Below, piece by piece: positions 1-24,244 of a stretch of DNA of 24,244 nucleotides. Position numbers and translations under genes: made by a program. Origin of the DNA: a virus; IMG/VR virus record IMGVR_UViG_3300015242_000427, positions 1 through 24,244 of that record; one strand, 5' to 3'. Position 1 is the first letter of the stretch. Each line of letters starts with the position of its first letter. The notes beneath the pieces are model-generated. The model did no database searches. It was not told where the DNA came from and saw only the letters and a program-made list of their open reading frames with translations.

Positions 1-432
1 ATGATCGGGCTACCGGTGATCGGCCGGCACAACGGGTACACCGGCCAGACGAGGGACTATCGCCTACGGTGGGCGCAGCACACCATCGGAGGAGGGAAGT
101 ATCGAGCTGTCCCGAAGTCGTGGAGTGACCTCGATCCGAAACCGTGGAGAATCCTCCCGCTCCCGAGGTGGCTGTTCCTGCATGCTCCCAGGGTGGTGGA
201 TCTCCTTGAAGCCGTGTGCATCTTCGCTACTGCTCCGGTGTACAACGTGCAACTGAACAAGGGGAACCTACGGAGAATCTCCCTCCGGCGCGCAGCCATG
301 CAACGGAGATTCCGCGACAATGCTCCTGCTCCGTGGCGCGTGGGAGCAATGCTCCTATGGAGCACGGGGCGCCTGCTCCTTACCTCCGGAATGGCAGTGC
401 TCCTGTGGCAGGTGATCTCATGGCGCTCATGA
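1..432 (+). CDS. GIY-YIG-like nuclease, possibly 5'-partial
   Basis: The protein has 143 residues from the ATG at the window edge. It carries the later part of a GIY-YIG nuclease fold: GYTGQTRD (residues 12-19) stands for the YIG strand, Arg21/Arg23 match the catalytic Arg helix, Glu70 in DLLEA the metal-binding Glu, and PVYNV plus N..N.RRI (79-93) the conserved Asn region. The first strand (GIY) is not present, so the gene may begin upstream of the window or be a short variant. Residues about 110-140 are an unusual hydrophobic, Leu/Trp-rich tail built from a TGCTCC microrepeat. The stop overlaps the start of the WhiB-like gene, so the two are probably co-transcribed. Expected role is DNA cleavage (homing or host/phage DNA processing). 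The fold assignment is inferred from motifs only. Confidence 0.6.
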   Translation: MIGLPVIGRHNGYTGQTRDYRLRWAQHTIGGGKYRAVPKSWSDLDPKPWRILPLPRWLFLHAPRVVDLLEAVCIFATAPVYNVQLNKGNLRRISLRRAAMQRRFRDNAPAPWRVGAMLLWSTGRLLLTSGMAVLLWQVISWRS

Positions 433-1178
433 ACGGGTGGCGCCTTGAAGGAGGAGGGCCGTGGCGGATAGTGGAGGAGTGCGTTGCCTCCCGGCACTGC
501 ACGTTGTACGCCGGCAAGCACGGTTGCATCTGCCCTCGCGCGCGCTCCCTGTACGAGAAGGATCTCATCCGTATGCGCAGGATCTCCAAGGAGTACCGGG
601 GCAGGCTGACGGAGGGACAACGTCAGCGCAGTGAATCTCCGGCATGGTTCAAGGGCGGACCGTGGAGGATAGCGGAGGAGTGCCTTGCGCTCGGGCACAA
701 CAATCTGGCATGGGCGCGGGGAACCAACAGGGATTCAGGTGGCGTGAGGTGCGTGTGCCCGCACGCAGTATGGCTCATGGAGCAGTACACGGCGAACCGG
801 CGTAAGCCGAAGGAAGTGCAACCTCCGCGCAAGAGGATGGGGTATGCGGCAGCTCTCCCTCTGGCCGCTGTGCCAGAGCCAGATTGGAGCAGGAGCGCAT
901 GCAGTAAGGACGTAGGAACGGCGGAAGGTGGCTTCAACGAGGATGTCAGCAAACGCGGTATGGCAGAACGGCAGGCTGCGAAAGATCTGTGCGGAGAGTG
1001 CCCGCTGTCTGTGTTCCGCGAGTGTGGTGCATGGATCGTAGCGAAGGAGGGGATTGCCCCCGGATCGCTCGGAGGTGTGTATGCCGGTAAGGACAGGTGG
1101 AATCGGCAGGGTGTTCAACTTGCCATGGTGGGGCAGATCATCAAGCGTGTCCGGCTGGACAGTGCGAAAACGAACTGA
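420..1178 (+). CDS. WhiB-like (Wbl) transcription factor with duplicated Cys-rich N-terminus
   Basis: The 252-residue protein has a WhiB-type iron-sulphur domain at about residues 152-235: DWSRSAC (Cys161), then LCGECPLSVFREC (Cys191, Cys194, Cys202), then a GGVY turn in place of the usual GVWGG. The last spacing is C-x2-C-x7-C, two longer than the common C-x2-C-x5-C. Upstream lie two copies of a unit beginning GGPWRI.EEC (12-46 and 79-121), each ending with a C.CP.A motif (Cys36/38 and Cys111/113). Wbl proteins bind a 4Fe-4S cluster and act with the primary sigma factor; phage versions such as TM4 WhiB can interfere with host Wbl control. I chose ATG 420 because AGGTG ends 5 nt before it; ATG 429, which overlaps the upstream stop as ATGA, is the alternative. 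The Wbl call is strong, the role of the N-terminus is unknown. Confidence 0.8.
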   Translation: MALMNGWRLEGGGPWRIVEECVASRHCTLYAGKHGCICPRARSLYEKDLIRMRRISKEYRGRLTEGQRQRSESPAWFKGGPWRIAEECLALGHNNLAWARGTNRDSGGVRCVCPHAVWLMEQYTANRRKPKEVQPPRKRMGYAAALPLAAVPEPDWSRSACSKDVGTAEGGFNEDVSKRGMAERQAAKDLCGECPLSVFRECGAWIVAKEGIAPGSLGGVYAGKDRWNRQGVQLAMVGQIIKRVRLDSAKTN

Positions 1179-1182
1179 TAGC

Positions 1183-1377
1183 ATGGTGTACATGGAGCCG
1201 TTGAAGGGCAAGACTTCAGACCGTATCCGAACCGGTGAGATTCCGGAGGAAGCGATCAGCAACAAGCGGATCGACACCGGGGACGCGCCGAAGATGGATT
1301 CGATCAAGAATTCCAGCGGCAAGGGTCTCGGTACCGGGGCAACCCGCAAACGTTCAGGAAAAGGAGCACAGGCATGA
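1183..1377 (+). CDS. Small basic protein of unknown function
   Basis: This 64-residue reading frame starts at ATG 1183, five bases after the stop of the WhiB-like gene, and its stop overlaps the next start as ATGA. ATG 1192 is an alternative start. The product is hydrophilic and rich in Lys, Arg, Gly and Ser, with a low-complexity C-terminus, and has no domain I recognise. No clear ribosome-binding site precedes it, so translation may be coupled to the upstream gene. Tight packing on both sides is the main support for it being real. Confidence 0.55.
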   Translation: MVYMEPLKGKTSDRIRTGEIPEEAISNKRIDTGDAPKMDSIKNSSGKGLGTGATRKRSGKGAQA

Positions 1378-1790
1378 CTGAGCAGTTGACCTACGAAAAG
1401 GCAGTAGAGTACGCGGAAGCGGTAGTGGCGGAGCGAGGTGCGGGCTTCGCCTACAGCGATGGAGGGTCGGACTACTGTTTCTACATTTCCACCACCGACC
1501 CCCGCTTTGAACTCATCGAATTTGATGGGGAGGAAGATGAAATTCCAGCCGAGGGGGCGGCTGTCACCGGATGCCTGGTGGGTGAGATCCTGAAACGCGC
1601 AGATCTGCTCACGGACTCCGTGGCTACTGCCCGCAAGAGTATCAATCAGCTCTGCGTAAACGGCGAAGTGCCTGCCGACCCAGAGGCGAGATACTTCCTC
1701 GCGTACTTGCAGAGTGAGCAGGATTTTGGCGCGTCATGGAGTCAGGCGCTCGCTTCGGCCAAAGAAAACGTTCAGAAATACAATCTCTGA
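1374..1790 (+). CDS. Acidic protein of unknown function
   Basis: The product has 138 residues, is acidic, and mixes predicted helix (TYEKAVEYAEAVVAE near the start) with a short beta-rich centre (DYCFYISTTDPRFELIEF). A clear AAGGAG lies 9 nt before ATG 1374, and the start overlaps the preceding stop as ATGA. It is the last gene of the rightward group and is followed within 10 nt by the bidirectional terminator. I do not recognise the family. Confidence 0.75.
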   Translation: MTEQLTYEKAVEYAEAVVAERGAGFAYSDGGSDYCFYISTTDPRFELIEFDGEEDEIPAEGAAVTGCLVGEILKRADLLTDSVATARKSINQLCVNGEVPADPEARYFLAYLQSEQDFGASWSQALASAKENVQKYNL

Positions 1791-4246: not shown

Positions 4247-7078
4247 TCAGAGTCCTAACAGCATGGCAGTATCTACCGGCAACGTAATGGGCGCATTGAT
4301 GACCTGTGCTTTGACTATACCGTTTACGCTACGGGTAATGGTAGCCGCCTGCGGGGAGGCGGTCCCCGTGATATCCGTGACCGTTATGCGTTCCCCGCCG
4401 ATCATCACATCAAACGGGAACTCTGCCGGATTAGCAGCCGTTGTCACACACAGAGCGCCGGTGGTAGTTTTGAAGCTCGCACTCGTCGCACTATTGGTGA
4501 TCGCGGCGTTCAGTACGGTGTTGCTGGAATCCGCACGTTTCACCTCGCTGCTTATGTTGCTGAGAATGTTGATCACGTACGGATAGCCCGGGGTCGCATT
4601 GTACGTGATATCCCACGTGAACTGAGTGAAGGTCTCACTCTGCCCGCGCGCGATCAGAAACAAGGCGTCCGGCGGTAGCCACGGCGGAAGGTTCGTGATA
4701 CCGAAGACGTCTCCGATATCAGTGTTCGCGGCCAGAGTGAAGGATGCATCATAGAAAGAGAACGCACTCGTCCGGTGCAATGCGATCTGCACGGTCGGAT
4801 AGCGAGGCTCGATCCACGTACTCAACCCCAGCATGTATTGCGCCAACGCCAACAGACGGTCATCCGTGGCATTGTTGATTTCCGGCGCGCTCTGTACCCG
4901 GCCGATACCGCCCGAGGTGGGGTCGAGTGTGCTCATGGGGCCGCTGTCCAACGTGACCTGCACGCTAGCGCCGTTACGTCGGCTCAACGTGATGTCGTTG
5001 GCTACGCCGAGGTCATCAGGCACCGGGGCGATCGTACCGCTCAGCTGTTTGACCGTCTGGCCGTAGCCATAACTCAGTCCTAGGCCGTACTGATTCAACA
5101 TGTTGACACGCGTGCGGTAGTCCAGCCCCAGGCGGTTGCGCGGCTCTACAATTTCACCGCCGTCAACGTCTGCGCATTCATACAGGATGTTCATGATCGT
5201 ATCGATGGGCTGCGGCCCCATCAGTTCGGTATCCGCACTCAGCCCGATGACATTGGAACTGATACCGTTATCGCGGAGTACCCGCACCCATCGATCACCG
5301 GCAGTTTCACCAACATATCCGCTACTGTAGGCGGCGAATGCGTAGGTCGTGAACGGCACGTCAAACTGAGTGAGCAGCAGATGTGCCACCCGCACTCCAC
5401 TGAGTGCGGCAACACCTTGAAGTAGCAGTTTGTTGAATCTGCCCGGAGTGCCCGCGTACGAGAACGGTCCGCTCACGAAGAAAGATGGACCACCACCGGC
5501 AGCAGTCCATTCGAAACTCATGATCGTATTGCTACCGGAAGGCAGCAATTTAATCTTCATTGCCACCCAATCGGTAGGCAGTGCCCCGTATGTGAACGCA
5601 GCAGTTGTCAGAAGTCCCCCGGCGTTGTCGTACACGTTCACCCGATAGGCCGCCGTCTCCACCACGAAATCAACACGCGCAGCACTTCCGCCCGCAATGC
5701 TCGCCGAAAAGAGCGTCAAGTTGCTGAGCGGGATGCTCGGGAACTTGAAGAAGAACACGAAGTTTGCCTGTGTGGTCGAGTTACTGACACTGCTCTTCGC
5801 CGTTCCCGTAAAGAGTGGCCCCGTTCCTCCACACACAGCCACTCCGGCACTTCCGGGCAGAGTGGTGTCGGAATCAAAAGTCATGTCCGTCAGAGCTGCG
5901 CTGGGGCTTCCGGCAACAGAGCTACCCGCCTGTGTGGCATTGCTGCCATCCTCCATCGGCCAGTAACCGGTGGGTTGGAGGTTGATGAAGTTCTTGTAGA
6001 TGGGGGAGCGCAACGGTGTGGCGTTCGCATCGAGCCGGCGGATCACGCCAGCAGCCTCAAGCGCTACCTTCACCACCTTGCCGGTTGAATCCCACGTTTG
6101 AGGTAGGCTACTGACTTCACCGTAGAAACGGTAGTCGGCATTGGTGACCTCGGCCAGAAGGCCATTCGCGCCACCCGACAGTGCCCAGTTGTTCGCCTGC
6201 GGATCCGTGTACGTGGTGGAGTTGACCGTCCGCGCCGTGAAGTCCACAGACGCGCGGGTTGTGCCGTTGATCTGAAGTTGGAAGTAGTACACGCGCCCCG
6301 ACGCCGTACTGTAGTTGGTGAAAGTACCGGCACCCCCGTTGCCGCTTCCGATCTCCAACGGCACGGATGCGCTGAACAGCGTGACGTTCCCCGCAATGGT
6401 CTGCAAGGTTCCGAGGTTGGTGAACGTTCCCGCAAAGGTCGGCGCTGTCTGAAACAGAACGGTGTTGTTGGCGCCGCTCACCACATCGTGGAAGACGCGG
6501 ATGGCGATGCGACCATTCTGCGTGGGCAGACTGACACTACTGAATACGGTGATGATGGTCGTTCCGTCCGTGGAGTAAGTGTAAATCACCTGCCCTGTGT
6601 AGCTGATCCGGATCGACCATTGCCGCTGCGCACCCGTATTCCAGCGAGCGCACAGAACATGTCCCGGCTCTTGCCGCATCCGCGTGAGGTCAACATCTAC
6701 GATGATGTCGAAGTCACCGGCTCCGTTGAAGTTGGCGACGCTCGGCGCTACGAAGGAACCCGTACCGTTGCTCGGAATGGTCAGCGCTACGGTGGGACGT
6801 TGCACAAAGAAACGGATGGGCATGTTGCGAGGCAGGATGCCATAGTACGGGCTGCGCGGATTGGTGTTGTTGAAGACACCGTTGGGATCAAGAATCGTAC
6901 ACGAGAGACTGCTGCCCGTTGTGCGCTGCTGCTCTGCGGAGTGCCCGCGCGTGATGTCGATACCGTTCTCCATGAGAACGCGGTATCCGTTGGTGTTGTC
7001 GCGCACGATATCAGTCCAGCCCAAACCTTGAAGGTTGAGCTGAACCTTGATTCCTAGCGGACTCTGAGGGAAGGCCAT
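4247..7078 (-). CDS. Minor tail protein / tail hub with two LamG-like domains
   Basis: This 943-residue protein follows the tape measure with a TGATG overlap. The N-terminus (DITRGHSAEQQRTT and SLSCTILDPNGVF, about residues 39-72) and the later part (about 580-850) form the framework usual in actinophage baseplate hub proteins. Two beta-sandwich insertions resemble laminin G/concanavalin-like lectin domains: about residues 105-310 (FNGAGDFDIIVDVDLTRM) and about 365-580 (PTGYWPMEDGSNATQ). Such domains suggest sugar binding at the host surface. The C-terminal 100 residues are another beta unit ending in a VTRSVNG motif. Domain edges are approximate. Confidence 0.75.
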   Translation of the reverse strand: MAFPQSPLGIKVQLNLQGLGWTDIVRDNTNGYRVLMENGIDITRGHSAEQQRTTGSSLSCTILDPNGVFNNTNPRSPYYGILPRNMPIRFFVQRPTVALTIPSNGTGSFVAPSVANFNGAGDFDIIVDVDLTRMRQEPGHVLCARWNTGAQRQWSIRISYTGQVIYTYSTDGTTIITVFSSVSLPTQNGRIAIRVFHDVVSGANNTVLFQTAPTFAGTFTNLGTLQTIAGNVTLFSASVPLEIGSGNGGAGTFTNYSTASGRVYYFQLQINGTTRASVDFTARTVNSTTYTDPQANNWALSGGANGLLAEVTNADYRFYGEVSSLPQTWDSTGKVVKVALEAAGVIRRLDANATPLRSPIYKNFINLQPTGYWPMEDGSNATQAGSSVAGSPSAALTDMTFDSDTTLPGSAGVAVCGGTGPLFTGTAKSSVSNSTTQANFVFFFKFPSIPLSNLTLFSASIAGGSAARVDFVVETAAYRVNVYDNAGGLLTTAAFTYGALPTDWVAMKIKLLPSGSNTIMSFEWTAAGGGPSFFVSGPFSYAGTPGRFNKLLLQGVAALSGVRVAHLLLTQFDVPFTTYAFAAYSSGYVGETAGDRWVRVLRDNGISSNVIGLSADTELMGPQPIDTIMNILYECADVDGGEIVEPRNRLGLDYRTRVNMLNQYGLGLSYGYGQTVKQLSGTIAPVPDDLGVANDITLSRRNGASVQVTLDSGPMSTLDPTSGGIGRVQSAPEINNATDDRLLALAQYMLGLSTWIEPRYPTVQIALHRTSAFSFYDASFTLAANTDIGDVFGITNLPPWLPPDALFLIARGQSETFTQFTWDITYNATPGYPYVINILSNISSEVKRADSSNTVLNAAITNSATSASFKTTTGALCVTTAANPAEFPFDVMIGGERITVTDITGTASPQAATITRSVNGIVKAQVINAPITLPVDTAMLLGL

Positions 7079-20213: not shown

Positions 20214-20450
20214 TTACTTCTTGCCGCTGTTCCCGCGCTTGTCTTCCTGCGAGGTGCCTTTACTCTTGCCCTTGTTGTCATCCTGCGGCCGGTCGTCGTG
20301 CTTGTCTCCGCCGTCGTTGTTCTTGCCGCCCTTGCTGGCCATGATCTTTCCCCTCCTGCATCCGTTCGAGCATCTGATGACGATGATGTGCCCGTCTTCT
20401 TGACCAACTGTTATGCCGGCGCCGGAGCAGACTTCACACCGTTCCCACAT
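20214..20450 (-). CDS. CxxCxGxG mini zinc-finger protein with charged tail
   Basis: The 78-residue product starts at ATG 20450 with AGGGGC upstream. Residues 1-35 carry CEVCSGAG and a second Cys pair (CSNGC), as in DnaJ-type zinc fingers. The rest is a Lys/Asp/Gly-rich disordered tail. An in-frame ATG at 20342 has a much stronger ribosome site (AGGAGGGG), so the tail alone (42 residues, MASKGGKNN start) may also be made. It overlaps the related upstream gene by 17 nt. Confidence 0.65.
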   Translation of the reverse strand: MWERCEVCSGAGITVGQEDGHIIVIRCSNGCRRGKIMASKGGKNNDGGDKHDDRPQDDNKGKSKGTSQEDKRGNSGKK

Positions 20451-20565
20451 TCACTGTGCCCCTGCCTTTGCAGGCAGTACAGGTCTCTTCGGTGGTCACA
20501 CCGTTCTTGATCTTCTTGATCACACCGTTACCGTGACAGTTCTGACACACTACCGTTTTAGCCAT
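20434..20565 (-). CDS. DnaJ-type zinc-finger mini-protein, 43 residues
   Basis: ATG 20565 follows GGAAAG. The product consists almost only of two CxxCxGxG knuckles, CQNCHGNG (about 8-15) and CTACKGRG (about 30-37), linked by a beta hairpin. In DnaJ two such pairs bind one zinc. Stand-alone versions are frequent in actinobacterial phages and their role is not known. It belongs to the operon that begins at the leaderless gene 20585-20734. Confidence 0.75.
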   Translation of the reverse strand: MAKTVVCQNCHGNGVIKKIKNGVTTEETCTACKGRGTVNVGTV

Positions 20566-20584
20566 GTTCTCGTCTTTCCAGACG

Positions 20585-20734
20585 TCAGGATGCGCGCACG
20601 TTGCGTGGGTACAACACGATGCCGTTCCGGTCATCGATCACCTTCTGGCGCCCTTTGAAGACCTCGCCCACGACAACCCCAGTACGGTGCTCGCCACGGC
20701 CATCAGTCCACTCGACGCGCTGTCCCTTGTTCAT
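20585..20734 (-). CDS. Small SH3-like protein from a leaderless promoter
   Basis: This 49-residue gene starts MNKGQRVEWTDGRGEHRTG and continues with beta-rich VVVGEVFKG and NGIVLYPRNVRAS, a pattern of small SH3-like barrels. Its ATG is exactly 6 nt from the -10 of the promoter at 20741-20769, so no room is left for a ribosome site. It heads the group with the two zinc-finger mini-proteins. Confidence 0.7.
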   Translation of the reverse strand: MNKGQRVEWTDGRGEHRTGVVVGEVFKGRQKVIDDRNGIVLYPRNVRAS

Positions 20735-20790
20735 GCACCTAACCTAGCAGTTCAGATCAGCACTGGCAAGCGTTTACGGATGGCGCACGC
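20731..20790 (-). repeat. 60-nt promoter repeat, copy A
   Basis: This block matches 20992-21051 at 57 of 60 positions. It includes the start codon, leader, -10, spacer/operator, -35 and the sequence that in copy B forms the last codons of the large terminase gene. Here those codons are non-coding remnants. Confidence 0.92.
20741..20769 (-). promoter_or_regulatory. Leaderless promoter with 18-bp operator (copy A)
   Basis: On the minus strand: -35 TTGCCA (20764-20769), 17-nt spacer, -10 TAGGTT (20741-20746), then 6 nt to ATG 20734. The palindromic element CAGTTCAGATCAGCACTG occupies 20748-20765, covering the spacer and the inner edge of -35. Confidence 0.8.
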
Positions 20791-20799
20791 TTGCCAGTG
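20761..20799. repeat. 12-bp inverted repeat between two small genes
   Basis: CACTGGCAAGCG (20761-20772) and its perfect complement (20788-20799) flank a 15-nt spacer. The left arm includes the -35 of the copy A promoter. On the minus strand it follows the 20810 stop by about 10 nt and could act as a terminator stem, though no U-run follows. Confidence 0.75.
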
Positions 20800-20809
20800 A
20801 ATCTTTAGA

Positions 20810-20995
20810 TCAGCGGCGACCCATGCCGTACACGCGACAGTGGCGATAGGCGTCTTCCATGAGCGCCTGCTGATGTGCTTCGTCCCGAACGGACTGCGCG
20901 TCACGTTGAGCGTTGATCTTCAGGGCTTCGATGTGCGCCAACAGCACGTAGCGCGTCCGGTTCGGGTACTGGCTGATCTCCGCCTGTGTCATCAT
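20810..20995 (-). CDS. Small helical protein from a leaderless promoter
   Basis: The 61-residue product (MMTQAEISQYPNRTRYVLLA start) is largely helical and has a basic C-terminus (RVYGMGRR). The first ATG is 6 nt from the -10 of promoter copy B, matching the copy A arrangement. The gene is flanked by the two copies of the 60-nt repeat, as expected of an inserted or duplicated unit. Function unknown. Confidence 0.7.
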   Translation of the reverse strand: MMTQAEISQYPNRTRYVLLAHIEALKINAQRDAQSVRDEAHQQALMEDAYRHCRVYGMGRR

Positions 20996-21051
20996 GCACC
21001 TAGCCTAGCAGTTCATATCAGCACTGGCAAGCGTTTACAGATGGCGCACGC
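20992..21051 (-). repeat. 60-nt promoter repeat, copy B
   Basis: This is the parental-looking copy: its right part (21035-21051) is the end of the large terminase coding sequence, its left part the promoter and start of the 20810-20995 gene. It differs from copy A at three positions. Confidence 0.92.
21002..21030 (-). promoter_or_regulatory. Leaderless promoter with 18-bp operator (copy B)
   Basis: On the minus strand: -35 TTGCCA (21025-21030), 17-nt spacer, -10 TAGGCT (21002-21007), then 6 nt to ATG 20995. The element CAGTTCATATCAGCACTG lies at 21009-21026. The -35 begins 5 nt after the terminase stop codon. Confidence 0.8.
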
Positions 21052-22423
21052 GAACCTTCGCTTTCAGATCATGCTCGGCAATGACGTAGCGCATCGTGTC
21101 GCACGCATGATCATTCTGCTTCAGCGGCTCATCCGGGATGGGTTTGCCGTCCGCGCCCGGTTTCCAGATGTAACCCGGCAGTTCACCCAGCAACCCCAGC
21201 GGAAGGCCTGCCTCTGCCACCTCCTCATCGCGATCCACCAGGGCATCGGCCAGAAGGAAGATCCTGGGCATACCATCGCCGGCGAGCGTGAAGCGCTGCT
21301 TCGTCACCTGAATGCCAGGGCTCACCGTCTTCTTGGCCGCGCGCGTCACTAGCCCCAGCTCCTTGGTGAACGTGGCACGATCTTCGGCATCGTGGTCGCA
21401 CACGATGAACTCCGGGCGCGGGTACTTCCACGTCACGCCGTCTTGCATGGTCACCACCTGCATGATCTGCGCGCAGTGCTCGCGCACGGTGCGCTTGCTG
21501 CGGTAGATCTCGTGCTCCAGCCACAGTCGTCCGTCCGGATCACGCGCCCACTGCTGCCAGCAGAACGGATTGGTGTATCCGAAGTCGATGCCCCATACTC
21601 GCGCCCAATCGCGCGGCAGGCGCTTGCGGTTGCTGACGTGCATGGCGCCATCGAACTCATCGAAGATCACGCCTTCCGCCGCCGCCCAGATACCGCCCTG
21701 TAACCGCAGCTTGCGCACCCCCGTCAACTTGTTCAGCTTGTCGAGATACGCCTGCCCCTTCACTGTGGGCGTGTACTGACCGGTGGCATCCACGGTGAAG
21801 AGATTGGGATTGTCCGTGTGCTTGGCGTACAGCATTTTGGTGGTACCGGCGTCGCATCGCAGCTTGAGCCAGTGATCCGGCTGTTCGGGGTTGCAGTCCG
21901 CGATGAGTTGCTGGAATGAGGTGCGCCCGTTGCGCAACCGTGTGGTGCACTTCTCCCAATCGGTGGGGGTCAGCTCGGTTGCTTCCTGCACGAAGATCAC
22001 ATCGAATTCCGATGACATGACCTTAGTGGGATTGTCCATGCCCGCGAGCATGATCTTGCTGCCGTTGTTGTACCGGTACTGAGCAGGCTCCTCACGGCTA
22101 CCGCCGTAGAACTGCACCAACCCCTGCTCGATGGCTTCCTTGGCCACGTGCTCCCGGTAGGTCACCACGCCCGTGCTGGACAGCGACACGAGGGTCTTGC
22201 GCACCATGAGCGCGCGTAGGGCTGTGGTGTGGTGCTCGTGCTTCTCCAAGCACAGCCGCGAACACTTGCCGTTCTTCATGCACATCATGTGCAATTTCCA
22301 CAAGGCGCTGTAGCTCTTGCCTGTGCCCGCCGGGCCGGCGATCAGCACCTCGCCGCCGCGCTCGCGTAGTAGCTGTCTGGCCGCGCCGCGCAGCTCCAAC
22401 CGTGTCACCACCTGTGCAGGCAT
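21035..22423 (-). CDS. Terminase large subunit
   Basis: From ATG 22423 the protein has 462 residues; ATG 22438 is possible but lies inside a hairpin without a ribosome site. The ATPase domain has Walker A GPAGTGKS (30-37) and Walker B DVIFVQE (141-147). The nuclease domain has GIDFGYTNPFCW and FIVCDHDAEDR as acidic motifs. Between Walker A and the next strand is an insertion with Cys48, Cys54, Cys58 and His62/64/65. The enzyme packages DNA into the prohead through the portal and makes the cuts at genome ends. Its end overlaps the promoter repeat copy B. Confidence 0.93.
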   Translation of the reverse strand: MPAQVVTRLELRGAARQLLRERGGEVLIAGPAGTGKSYSALWKLHMMCMKNGKCSRLCLEKHEHHTTALRALMVRKTLVSLSSTGVVTYREHVAKEAIEQGLVQFYGGSREEPAQYRYNNGSKIMLAGMDNPTKVMSSEFDVIFVQEATELTPTDWEKCTTRLRNGRTSFQQLIADCNPEQPDHWLKLRCDAGTTKMLYAKHTDNPNLFTVDATGQYTPTVKGQAYLDKLNKLTGVRKLRLQGGIWAAAEGVIFDEFDGAMHVSNRKRLPRDWARVWGIDFGYTNPFCWQQWARDPDGRLWLEHEIYRSKRTVREHCAQIMQVVTMQDGVTWKYPRPEFIVCDHDAEDRATFTKELGLVTRAAKKTVSPGIQVTKQRFTLAGDGMPRIFLLADALVDRDEEVAEAGLPLGLLGELPGYIWKPGADGKPIPDEPLKQNDHACDTMRYVIAEHDLKAKVRVRHL

Positions 22424-22427
22424 AGAT

Positions 22428-22455
22428 CTGGCCCCCATCGCTTGATGGGGGCCAG
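22428..22455. repeat. 12-bp hairpin at the large terminase start
   Basis: CTGGCCCCCATC (22428-22439), a 4-nt loop and the perfect complement (22444-22455) form a strong stem. It ends 5 nt before ATG 22423 and holds the alternative ATG 22438 and the only G-rich ribosome-site-like run. No U-run follows. It may limit terminase translation or separate it from the upstream genes. Confidence 0.8.
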
Positions 22456-22916: not shown

Positions 22917-23102
22917 TCAGACTCCTTGGATCTTGTGGGCACGGTTCATGTCCGTGATGCTCCGAATCAAAGCCCAGCAGCCCGGCCCGTCGCATCCGAT
23001 GTAGCCACCGATGGCGTTGCGCTGAGCCGTGAGATGAAACTCCGACTCGCGCTGCGCCGCAGCCTCGGCGCGCTCCGCTTTGCGTTTCTGCATCTCATTC
23101 AC
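22917..23102 (-). CDS. Small protein with CDGPGC motif, probably leaderless
   Basis: GTG 23102 lies 6 nt from a TAGTCT -10, in line with the other leaderless genes; ATG 23093 is an alternative. The 61 residues are a basic helix (MQKRKAERAEAAAQRESEFH) followed by a GCDGPGCWALIRS segment. The pair of Cys could coordinate metal with nearby His. It is the first of three small genes leading to the large terminase. Confidence 0.65.
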   Translation of the reverse strand: MNEMQKRKAERAEAAAQRESEFHLTAQRNAIGGYIGCDGPGCWALIRSITDMNRAHKIQGV

Positions 23103-23108
23103 GTTATT

Positions 23109-23140
23109 AGACTACACGTCATCAGTTCATATTTCCACTG
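23109..23140 (-). promoter_or_regulatory. Probable leaderless promoter with operator, weaker variant
   Basis: On the minus strand: -35 TGGAAA (23132-23137), 17-nt spacer, -10 TAGTCT (23109-23114), 6 nt to GTG 23102. The operator CAGTTCATATTTCCACTG is at 23123-23140, overlapping -35 rather than lying mainly in the spacer. The -35 matches TTGACA at four of six positions. Confidence 0.55.
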
Positions 23141-23161: not shown

Positions 23162-23190
23162 TTGCCAGTGCAGATTCGCACTGCTACAAT
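23162..23190 (+). promoter_or_regulatory. Leaderless promoter with perfect palindromic operator
   Basis: On the plus strand: -35 TTGCCA (23162-23167), 17-nt spacer, -10 TACAAT (23185-23190), then 6 nt to ATG 23197. The element CAGTGCAGATTCGCACTG (23166-23183) has perfect 6-bp arms. This is the best sigma-70-like promoter in the window. Confidence 0.88.
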
Positions 23191-23196
23191 TTAGGT

Positions 23197-23460
23197 ATGA
23201 CGAAGACGCAGATCGCGAAGCAGATCAAAGCAAGCTACCGGAAGTCACACGAAGCCGGCGAGTGGATGTCGGTGGTGGACTTCGCGGAGCAGGTCGACTA
23301 CACGCCGACTCAGATCGCGGAAGCGCTCATCCACCTCGCGCGCACGGACGACCGGTTCAACCTGGTTCCGGAGAGCAACCAGAAGATCCTCACGGACATG
23401 GACCACGCGTACGCAGTGCACTTCGGAGGACAGGAGAAGCACCTGTACTGCTGGTTTTGA
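23197..23460 (+). CDS. Winged-helix-like small protein, moron-like single gene
   Basis: The only rightward gene in the right 22 kb encodes 87 residues. The N-terminus is a basic helix (TKTQIAKQIKASYRKSHEAG), followed by VVDFAEQVDYTPTQIAEAL, which fits a helix-turn-helix, then a possible wing (NLVPESNQKILT and HYLYCW-like end, read as KHLYCWF). It has its own promoter and terminator, in the opposite orientation to its neighbours. The leaderless start at ATG 23197 follows from the 6-nt distance to the -10. It may be a DNA-binding regulator of the shared operator, but this is inference. Confidence 0.75.
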   Translation: MTKTQIAKQIKASYRKSHEAGEWMSVVDFAEQVDYTPTQIAEALIHLARTDDRFNLVPESNQKILTDMDHAYAVHFGGQEKHLYCWF

Positions 23461-23567: not shown

Positions 23568-23729
23568 CTACTTGCTCTCGCGCTCCAACCGCTGGCGCTC
23601 AGCCGCCGTTGCCTTCTGCGCTTCGATCTCCGCTCGCGTCCCCTCCACGAAACTCTGACCGCGGCGAAGTCGGTGCTTGCTGTCCAGAATTGCAGCAGCT
23701 TCGCGCTGCTCCTTACTGTGTCTCGGCAT
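23568..23729 (-). CDS. Small charged protein from a leaderless promoter, 53 residues
   Basis: ATG 23729 is 6 nt from the TAGGCT -10. The product (MPRHSKEQREAAAILDSKHR start) is helical, basic and rich in Glu, Gln, Arg, with a repeated AE..... coiled pattern towards the end. It lies between the small terminase gene and the probable leftward terminator. Function unknown. Confidence 0.7.
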   Translation of the reverse strand: MPRHSKEQREAAAILDSKHRLRRGQSFVEGTRAEIEAQKATAAERQRLERESK

Positions 23730-23735
23730 ACGCTA

Positions 23736-23764
23736 AGCCTATCAGTTCAGATGTGAACTGTCTA
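23736..23764 (-). promoter_or_regulatory. Leaderless promoter with perfect palindromic operator
   Basis: On the minus strand: -35 TAGACA (23759-23764), 17-nt spacer, -10 TAGGCT (23736-23741), 6 nt to ATG 23729. The operator CAGTTCAGATGTGAACTG (23743-23760) has perfect 6-bp arms. The -35 includes the TAG stop codon of the small terminase gene. Confidence 0.8.
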
Positions 23765-24244
23765 GCTCAGTTCCTCCGGATCAACGCCAACAATCTCATA
23801 CTTGATGGCGCCGGAGATCTCCGCCTTGATCGCGCTGTCCACGCCCATGAGCTTGCGCGTGTGCTCGCCCATCTTGGCCGCTGTCTCGATCGCACGTAGC
23901 CGGCCAGTGTAGTCGCGCACCAACTCCCCGTTGTCGTCGTACGCGATGCTACCGTCTTTGCCAACGAACACGGGAGCCGGCACGAGATCTGCGATTTCCA
24001 GTGCGCGCCGCTGCAACTCACGGTACAAGTCGATGGACTCTTGACGCATCGCGTCCATGTCCACGGTCGGGATACTGGCGCGCGCATCCGCAAGGATCTG
24101 ACTGACGCGCATGGTGGAAATTTGAAACTCTTCGCCGATGTCTTCCATCGTGCGCTGATAGATCGTATAAGCGCGCCAGATAGCGCCGTCGCGACCTTCG
24201 AGCCGACTGGCCTTCCGCGCCCCGCCATCCCGCTTCTCTGCCAT
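23762..24244 (-). CDS. Terminase small subunit candidate (HTH protein)
   Basis: The 160-residue protein starts at the last base of the window, so its upstream signals are not visible. Residues 20-56 form a helix-turn-helix (AIWRAYTIYQRTMEDIGEEF, then ISTMRVSQILADARA), similar to sigma region 4 or small terminase DNA-binding domains. A central helical region (QESIDLYRELQRRALEIADL) and a late RLRAIETAAKMGEHTRKLMG helix could drive ring formation. Gene order supports a small terminase: the large terminase lies about 1.3 kb downstream, but with six small genes in between, which is unusual. Confidence 0.7.
   Translation of the reverse strand: MAEKRDGGARKASRLEGRDGAIWRAYTIYQRTMEDIGEEFQISTMRVSQILADARASIPTVDMDAMRQESIDLYRELQRRALEIADLVPAPVFVGKDGSIAYDDNGELVRDYTGRLRAIETAAKMGEHTRKLMGVDSAIKAEISGAIKYEIVGVDPEELS

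Follow-up and report, generated by a model that had tools for sequence, protein, structure and literature searches.

A putative operator-promoter block, probably copied together with the end of the terminase gene, brackets an orphan gene in a phage of actinobacterial type

In the 24,244-base virus record analysed here (the window), a 61-aa orphan gene, Y, lies between two near-identical 60-nt blocks, each of which carries a predicted sigma70-type promoter, a putative 18-bp operator and the final codons of the large terminase gene. The explanation that accounts best for this arrangement, and that we consider probable, is that a regulated promoter cassette belonging to a dispersed operator set was copied with the terminase tail by an illegitimate join. 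The window is part of a genome, and a single metagenome contig underlies its repeat structure. Since the terminase of the window shares 49% identity with the Thermobifida phage P1312 protein and 46% with the Streptomyces phage Dagobah one, the source looks like an actinobacterial-type phage, from soil.

Repeat search and self-BLAST returned 20731–20790 and 20992–21051 as the strongest repeat in the window (57 of 60 nt identical, or 95%; spacing 261; E = 1.4e-20), confirming the coordinates and match count of the duplicated 60-nt block given in a preliminary description of this DNA. The palindrome within each copy had not featured in that description, nor had its other matches in the window or the 13-nt inverted repeat at the edge of copy A. 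The locus contains the following elements:

20585–20734, minus strand: gene X, 49 aa, driven by copy A (from the ORF list)
20731–20790, minus strand: copy A, with a non-coding terminase-tail remnant, promoter, operator and the ATGA start of gene X
20732–20770, minus strand: core promoter of copy A (-35 TTGCCA, 17-nt spacer, -10 TAGGTT, 6 nt, ATG), predicted leaderless
20748–20765, no strand assigned: operator of copy A, the 18-bp palindrome CAGT-N10-ACTG, CAGTGCTGATCTGAACTG on the minus strand
20761–20799, minus strand: perfect 13-nt inverted repeat with a 13-nt loop across the upstream edge of copy A (z -4.0)
20810–20995, minus strand: orphan gene Y, 61 aa, between the two blocks (from the ORF list; coding-like GC pattern)
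20992–21051, minus strand: copy B, well supported as the original copy, with the last codons and stop of the terminase, promoter, operator and the ATGA start of Y
20993–21031, minus strand: core promoter of copy B (-35 TTGCCA, 17-nt spacer, -10 TAGGCT, 6 nt, ATG), predicted leaderless
21009–21026, no strand assigned: operator of copy B, the 18-bp palindrome CAGT-N10-ACTG, CAGTGCTGATATGAACTG on the minus strand
21035–22438, minus strand: large terminase subunit, well supported as the source of the remnant

Read on the minus strand, copy B is GCGTGCGCCATCTGTAAACGCTTGCCAGTGCTGATATGAACTGCTAGGCTAGGTGCATGA and comprises the last codons of the terminase (...CGC CAT CTG TAA, with the TAA stop at 21035–21037), the promoter and the ATG of Y. 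Copy A holds the terminase-tail remnant GCGTGCGCCATCCGTAA, with one change relative to copy B, outside any gene; this remnant, CATCCGTAA, comes after the stop of Y, and copy A ends at the ATG of X. Because the C-terminal codons are genuine terminase codons in relatives, whose terminases end R-V-R-H/Y-L/I-stop, the tail can be read as real coding sequence in copy B and as a fossil in copy A. Copying in the direction B to A, that is, from the terminase end as had been proposed, is well supported by these comparisons. Since the record is a single metagenomic contig and the blocks are repeats, strain variants with Y and with X might have been misjoined during assembly. We regard such an artefact as highly improbable: the copies differ at three positions and the whole unit is short (261 nt), the junction between Y and the terminase tail has just 13 nt of similarity, in inverted orientation, which would be too little for an assembler overlap, and a second record, G001, has the same kind of structure.

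Each block contains the 18-bp palindrome CAGT-N10-ACTG within a sigma70-type promoter, which supports the earlier reading of the block as a promoter; a stricter sigma70 consensus scan calls no promoter at the blocks. Besides the two block palindromes, the window has five further exact half-site matches. One, at 5075, was taken as probable chance, as it lies inside a coding ORF and is off consensus; the other four are listed here.

1160–1177, plus strand: operator, spacer-type promoter at the 3' end of a 320-aa gene
23123–23140, minus strand: operator, divergent promoter of the 61-aa gene at 22917–23102
23166–23183, plus strand: operator, spacer-type promoter of the 87-aa gene at 23197–23460
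23743–23760, minus strand: operator, leaderless promoter of the 53-aa gene at 23568–23729

The 320-aa protein (216–1178, plus strand), at whose 3' end the first of these sites lies, has a sub-threshold WhiB-like stretch and internal repeats at 453–487 and 654–688. Perfect inverted repeats of 14 bp and 12 bp with short loops, at 1797–1831 and 22428–22455, are likely terminators, and no Rfam families or tRNA were found in the window.

Across five related records we counted 45 exact CAGT-N10-ACTG sites (7 in the window and 12, 8, 3 and 15 in G001 to G004, respectively), compared with 0 for a reversed-pattern control, and among gaps of 4–16 between the half-sites a gap of 10 stands out. The symmetrised consensus is CAGTKSNNATNNSMACTG. 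A -10-like TANNNT begins at one of two exact offsets from the palindrome, +1 or +8, with 17 ends each; these make up 34 of the 90 oriented ends of the 45 sites, and other offsets are rare (P about 1e-26 for one offset). In the +1 type, the palindrome takes up the 17-nt spacer and runs into the -35, while in the +8 type it covers the -35 itself, often TTGACA. Taking as promoters those defined by a -10 at +1 or +8 from the palindrome, which gives 42 in eight records, we found -35 hexamers that are mostly TTGACA (11 of the 42), TAGACA, TTGCCA or TTGTCA, and an ATG or GTG exactly 6 nt past the -10 in 24 of the 42 (background 5.5%, P about 1e-19). Given a start codon at this distance, the predicted mRNAs should be leaderless and begin at the ATG.

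An exact-pattern scan of viral contigs with the promoter block returned no match outside the window. The exact consensus CAGTTGACATCTGAACTG occurs outside the clade as single sites in AT-rich DNA, which were taken as chance, with the exception of L113, a 14-kb viral contig that was missed by the terminase searches; it has three CAGT-N10-ACTG sites and is probably a member of the group. The -35-type operators often lie within longer palindromes, whose outer arms of 7–9 bp differ in sequence yet are complementary (G004 28799 and 36212; G001 20884, 21332 and 22147; G002 10103). Two of these were folded (-34 kcal/mol, z -5.7 and -7.6), and several have GATCTTT next on the other strand and may double as terminators.

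Since the palindrome occupies the polymerase-binding position of optimally spaced promoters, the most fitting interpretation is a putative operator for a phage regulator, most likely a repressor acting by blocking RNA polymerase; the operator set is counted, and the repression is what we infer from its placement. The site might instead serve an activator, a host regulator or a nucleoid-type protein, in keeping with the lack of any integrase or CI-type repressor among the records and with HTH_3 (PF01381) matches that are all below the cut-off and fall in a single HTH protein next to the terminase. We consider this unlikely, given that the optimal 17-nt spacers and the many strong hexamers would make an activator unnecessary and that a protein bound to the palindrome, which lies over the -35 or the spacer, would obstruct the polymerase.

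Candidates for the putative repressor were sought in the same records. Neither tyrosine nor serine integrases were detected in the related records searched, among them G004 and G006, with identical ends of 127 and 123 nt that point to complete circular assemblies. The phiC31 c repressor and integrase likewise had no credible homologue among the records covered, several being partial. One candidate is a family of about 94–105 aa, the 94-aa family, encoded upstream of a primase-like gene with operators or near-operators in front (G004 29161–29445, G002 1862–2146, G006 24370–24684 and G009 28151–28516). By eye, its sequence suggests a ribbon-helix-helix start; three of the four members have no Pfam match and the fourth has a spurious weak one, there is no NCBIfam or PDB support, and the monomer model is mostly one long helix. 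A second candidate, a 71-aa family, is preceded in six records by an operator or near-operator and gave a confident structure model with no significant PDB match. The third is the terminase-adjacent HTH protein itself (23762–24244, minus strand), which is matched by the PHROG 'RNase E' and by Sigma70_r4 and is, by position, more likely the small terminase subunit. G004 also encodes a 66-aa stand-alone GerE/LuxR-type HTH protein (26949–27149, minus strand) with an operator just upstream of its start. It is unlikely to be the shared regulator: among the operator-bearing relatives searched, such a protein exceeds the Pfam cut-off only in G004, with none in the 42.7-kb G009. The site could also bind another regulator, even a host one.

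An operator lies just behind or overlaps the terminase stop in all eight relatives whose terminase is at least 57% identical to that of the window (six exact, two with one mismatch). In most of them it starts 1 nt after the stop, which makes the TAG stop part of the -35. Among 29 relatives with terminase identity of 55% or less, none has an exact site at the stop, and three have one-mismatch matches, which is chance level; Dagobah and P1312, the nearest named phages (46–49% terminase identity), are without the operator set. The window alone has two operators at this position, with Y between them, where the eight relatives have one. The genes behind the single operator vary: L002 and L003 have a homologue of the 138-aa gene of the window (1374–1790), L004 has a small gene followed by a second operator-promoter, L005 has a secreted-looking protein, and L060 and L062 have other proteins. 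Relatives with one block and a different gene behind it, which the preliminary description had named as the comparison to make, thus exist in eight of eight cases, at terminase identities of 57–89%, so that they are not near-identical genomes. Neither blocks of unrelated sequence nor a copy A at a genuine terminase end, the two observations that would have spoken against its account, turned up in the relatives.

Y has a coding-like GC pattern (0.66, 0.40 and 0.77 at codon positions 1, 2 and 3, compared with 0.62, 0.43 and 0.81 in the terminase). No relatives of Y were found in viral contigs, related records, Pfam, PHROGs or NCBIfam, and protein search detected none for X; protein comparison showed that Y and X are unrelated to each other. 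The resulting order is terminase-[P]-Y-[P]-X, with each orphan gene behind its own promoter copy. As for the promoter and terminator that a moron carries, Y has the promoter, and the hairpin behind it (-26.2 kcal/mol, z -4.0) has no T-run. A 66-aa Cys-rich protein with DnaJ-like CXXCXGXG motifs (under the Pfam cut-off) is encoded at 20434–20634 on the minus strand.

The hairpin corresponds to the 13-nt inverted repeat at the upstream edge of copy A, whose arms (20761–20773 and 20787–20799) are missing from copy B; copy B folds at -13.2 kcal/mol (z +0.9), compared with the values just given for copy A. No arms of 13 nt or more occurred in 20 Markov shuffles of the window. The repeat is a probable junction scar or hairpin: a template switch may have left it, or Y may end in a hairpin here. 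The join upstream of copy A is illegitimate, and a terminase tail cannot have arrived behind Y by homologous exchange at the promoter alone.

On the explanation that we favour, the 60-nt block would be a regulated cassette (-35 TTGCCA, 17 nt, -10 TAGGYT, with the 18-bp operator between and over the hexamers and a leaderless mRNA), and dispersed operators would place many small genes under a single phage regulator, most likely a repressor. One such cassette stands directly behind the terminase stop in this clade, its -35 beginning with the TAG stop in several relatives. Because the cassette adjoins the stop, a copy of it made with some upstream sequence would carry terminase codons. In the lineage of the window, an illegitimate join would then have placed a second terminase tail and promoter behind Y, either through one crossover between related co-infecting genomes that joined terminase-P-Y to terminase-tail-P-X, or through a tandem duplication after which the second Y was replaced. 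The resulting repeats are long enough that homologous recombination could later delete Y or swap genes.

A purely local event is also conceivable, in which replication slippage or unequal crossing duplicated terminase-tail-P-Y in tandem, with later loss of the second Y or its replacement by X. The short spacing (261), the high identity and the common orientation of the copies fit such a duplication, as does the inverted repeat at the junction, which is of the kind that template switching can leave. Behind copy A, however, there is no trace of a second Y, and because X is unrelated to Y a replacement event would be needed as well; we find this account doubtful.

An independent case comes from G001 (L019), where about 1.4 kb contains a 65-nt direct repeat (95% identity; 20847–20911 and 21295–21359) and two inverted repeats, of 42 nt (100%) and 86 nt (81%). 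These repeats are operator-promoter-start blocks before unrelated proteins, which have the first six residues in common in one pair and nothing in common in the others. Altogether, G001 has five related blocks in direct and inverted orientation, 81–100% alike and followed by small unrelated genes (20847–20911, 21295–21359, 21550–21635, 21925–21966 and 22138–22222). One spacer-type block has its -10 and leader in common with the -35-type blocks, and for this reason an exchange within the promoter seems to have occurred in G001.

The preliminary description had suggested that the promoter repeat may itself be the recombination target for gain and loss of small genes. The direct 65-nt and inverted 42-nt pairs of G001 are suggestive of this, and promoter recombination is a plausible means of gene gain and loss; the terminase-tail junction at copy A, being illegitimate, does not conform to it. 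That homologous exchange at the cassettes is a regular route for such gain and loss is possible, although we lean against it. The five G001 blocks before unrelated genes, the different genes behind the same terminase-adjacent promoter among relatives and the precedent at repeats of about 50–60 bp in phages Island3 and Brujita (PMC3029335) argue for it. Against it stand the illegitimate junction, the lack of near-identical genomes that show gene presence and absence with block-exact ends, and selection on the promoter, which could partly maintain the similarity. More tentatively still, the cassette could act as a plug-in socket, with repeated homologous recombination moving pre-wired orphan genes in and out and new sockets arising by copying of the cassette behind the terminase.

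The locus offers a concrete case in which a putative regulatory site is itself the repeat that brackets a phage orphan gene, and in which a gene remnant fixes the direction of copying. If this holds generally, a new gene would be under the control of the phage switch from its arrival, and this would account for the harmless addition of tiny orphan genes. In this uncultured phage group, the palindrome further provides a regulon that can be tested and a means of screening for the regulator.

As in known sets of dispersed repressor operators, the motif described here is repeated beyond chance and its sites lie on promoters or between genes. The conserved inverted repeats (CIRs) of the Streptomyces phage phiC31 are operators bound by the phage c repressor. 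Our motif scan recovers them as CCTACTCA-NN-TGAGTAGG, the count being 9 to 15 according to which half-site is used. They resemble the present set in that many copies of one palindrome run through the genome, but differ in the palindrome and its spacing, and no credible c repressor homologue turned up in the records searched here, several of them partial. The stoperators of cluster A mycobacteriophages (L5, Bxb1) are likewise dispersed, mainly intergenic repressor sites (PMC3029335, PMC6550527); they are asymmetric 13-bp sites that mostly share one orientation and have been proposed to stop elongation, whereas the putative operators described here are 18 bp long and palindromic, serve both strands and lie mostly on promoters. 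SPBRE, a repeated element in the promoter regions of many SPbeta prophage genes, is bound by the master repressor MrpR (PMC10516654); it is a 15-bp motif of a Bacillus prophage with a known regulator, compared with 18 bp and a putative regulator here. The SAS/ESAS elements of cluster K are found at the starts of many genes of different families (PMC3203893), but SAS is an asymmetric 13-bp sequence, GGGATAGGAGCCC, and only ESAS has inverted repeats, of 17 bp with a variable spacer. With respect to gene gain, the closest parallel is Island3 gene 68, an orphan gene linked to a repeat of about 60 bp that it has in common with its neighbour; in the close relative Brujita the gene is absent and the repeat occurs once (PMC3029335). 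In the window, a 60-nt repeat similarly brackets Y, and a single block with other genes is found in the eight relatives (57–89% terminase identity, hence not near-identical). The Island3/Brujita repeat is the 3' coding end of two genes, whereas that of the window consists of a putative regulated promoter and a terminase tail, so that each gene would gain the same switch. Dispersed phage operators and gene gain at short repeats are thus already known, and what is new here is a putatively regulated promoter as the bracketing repeat, together with a terminase fossil.
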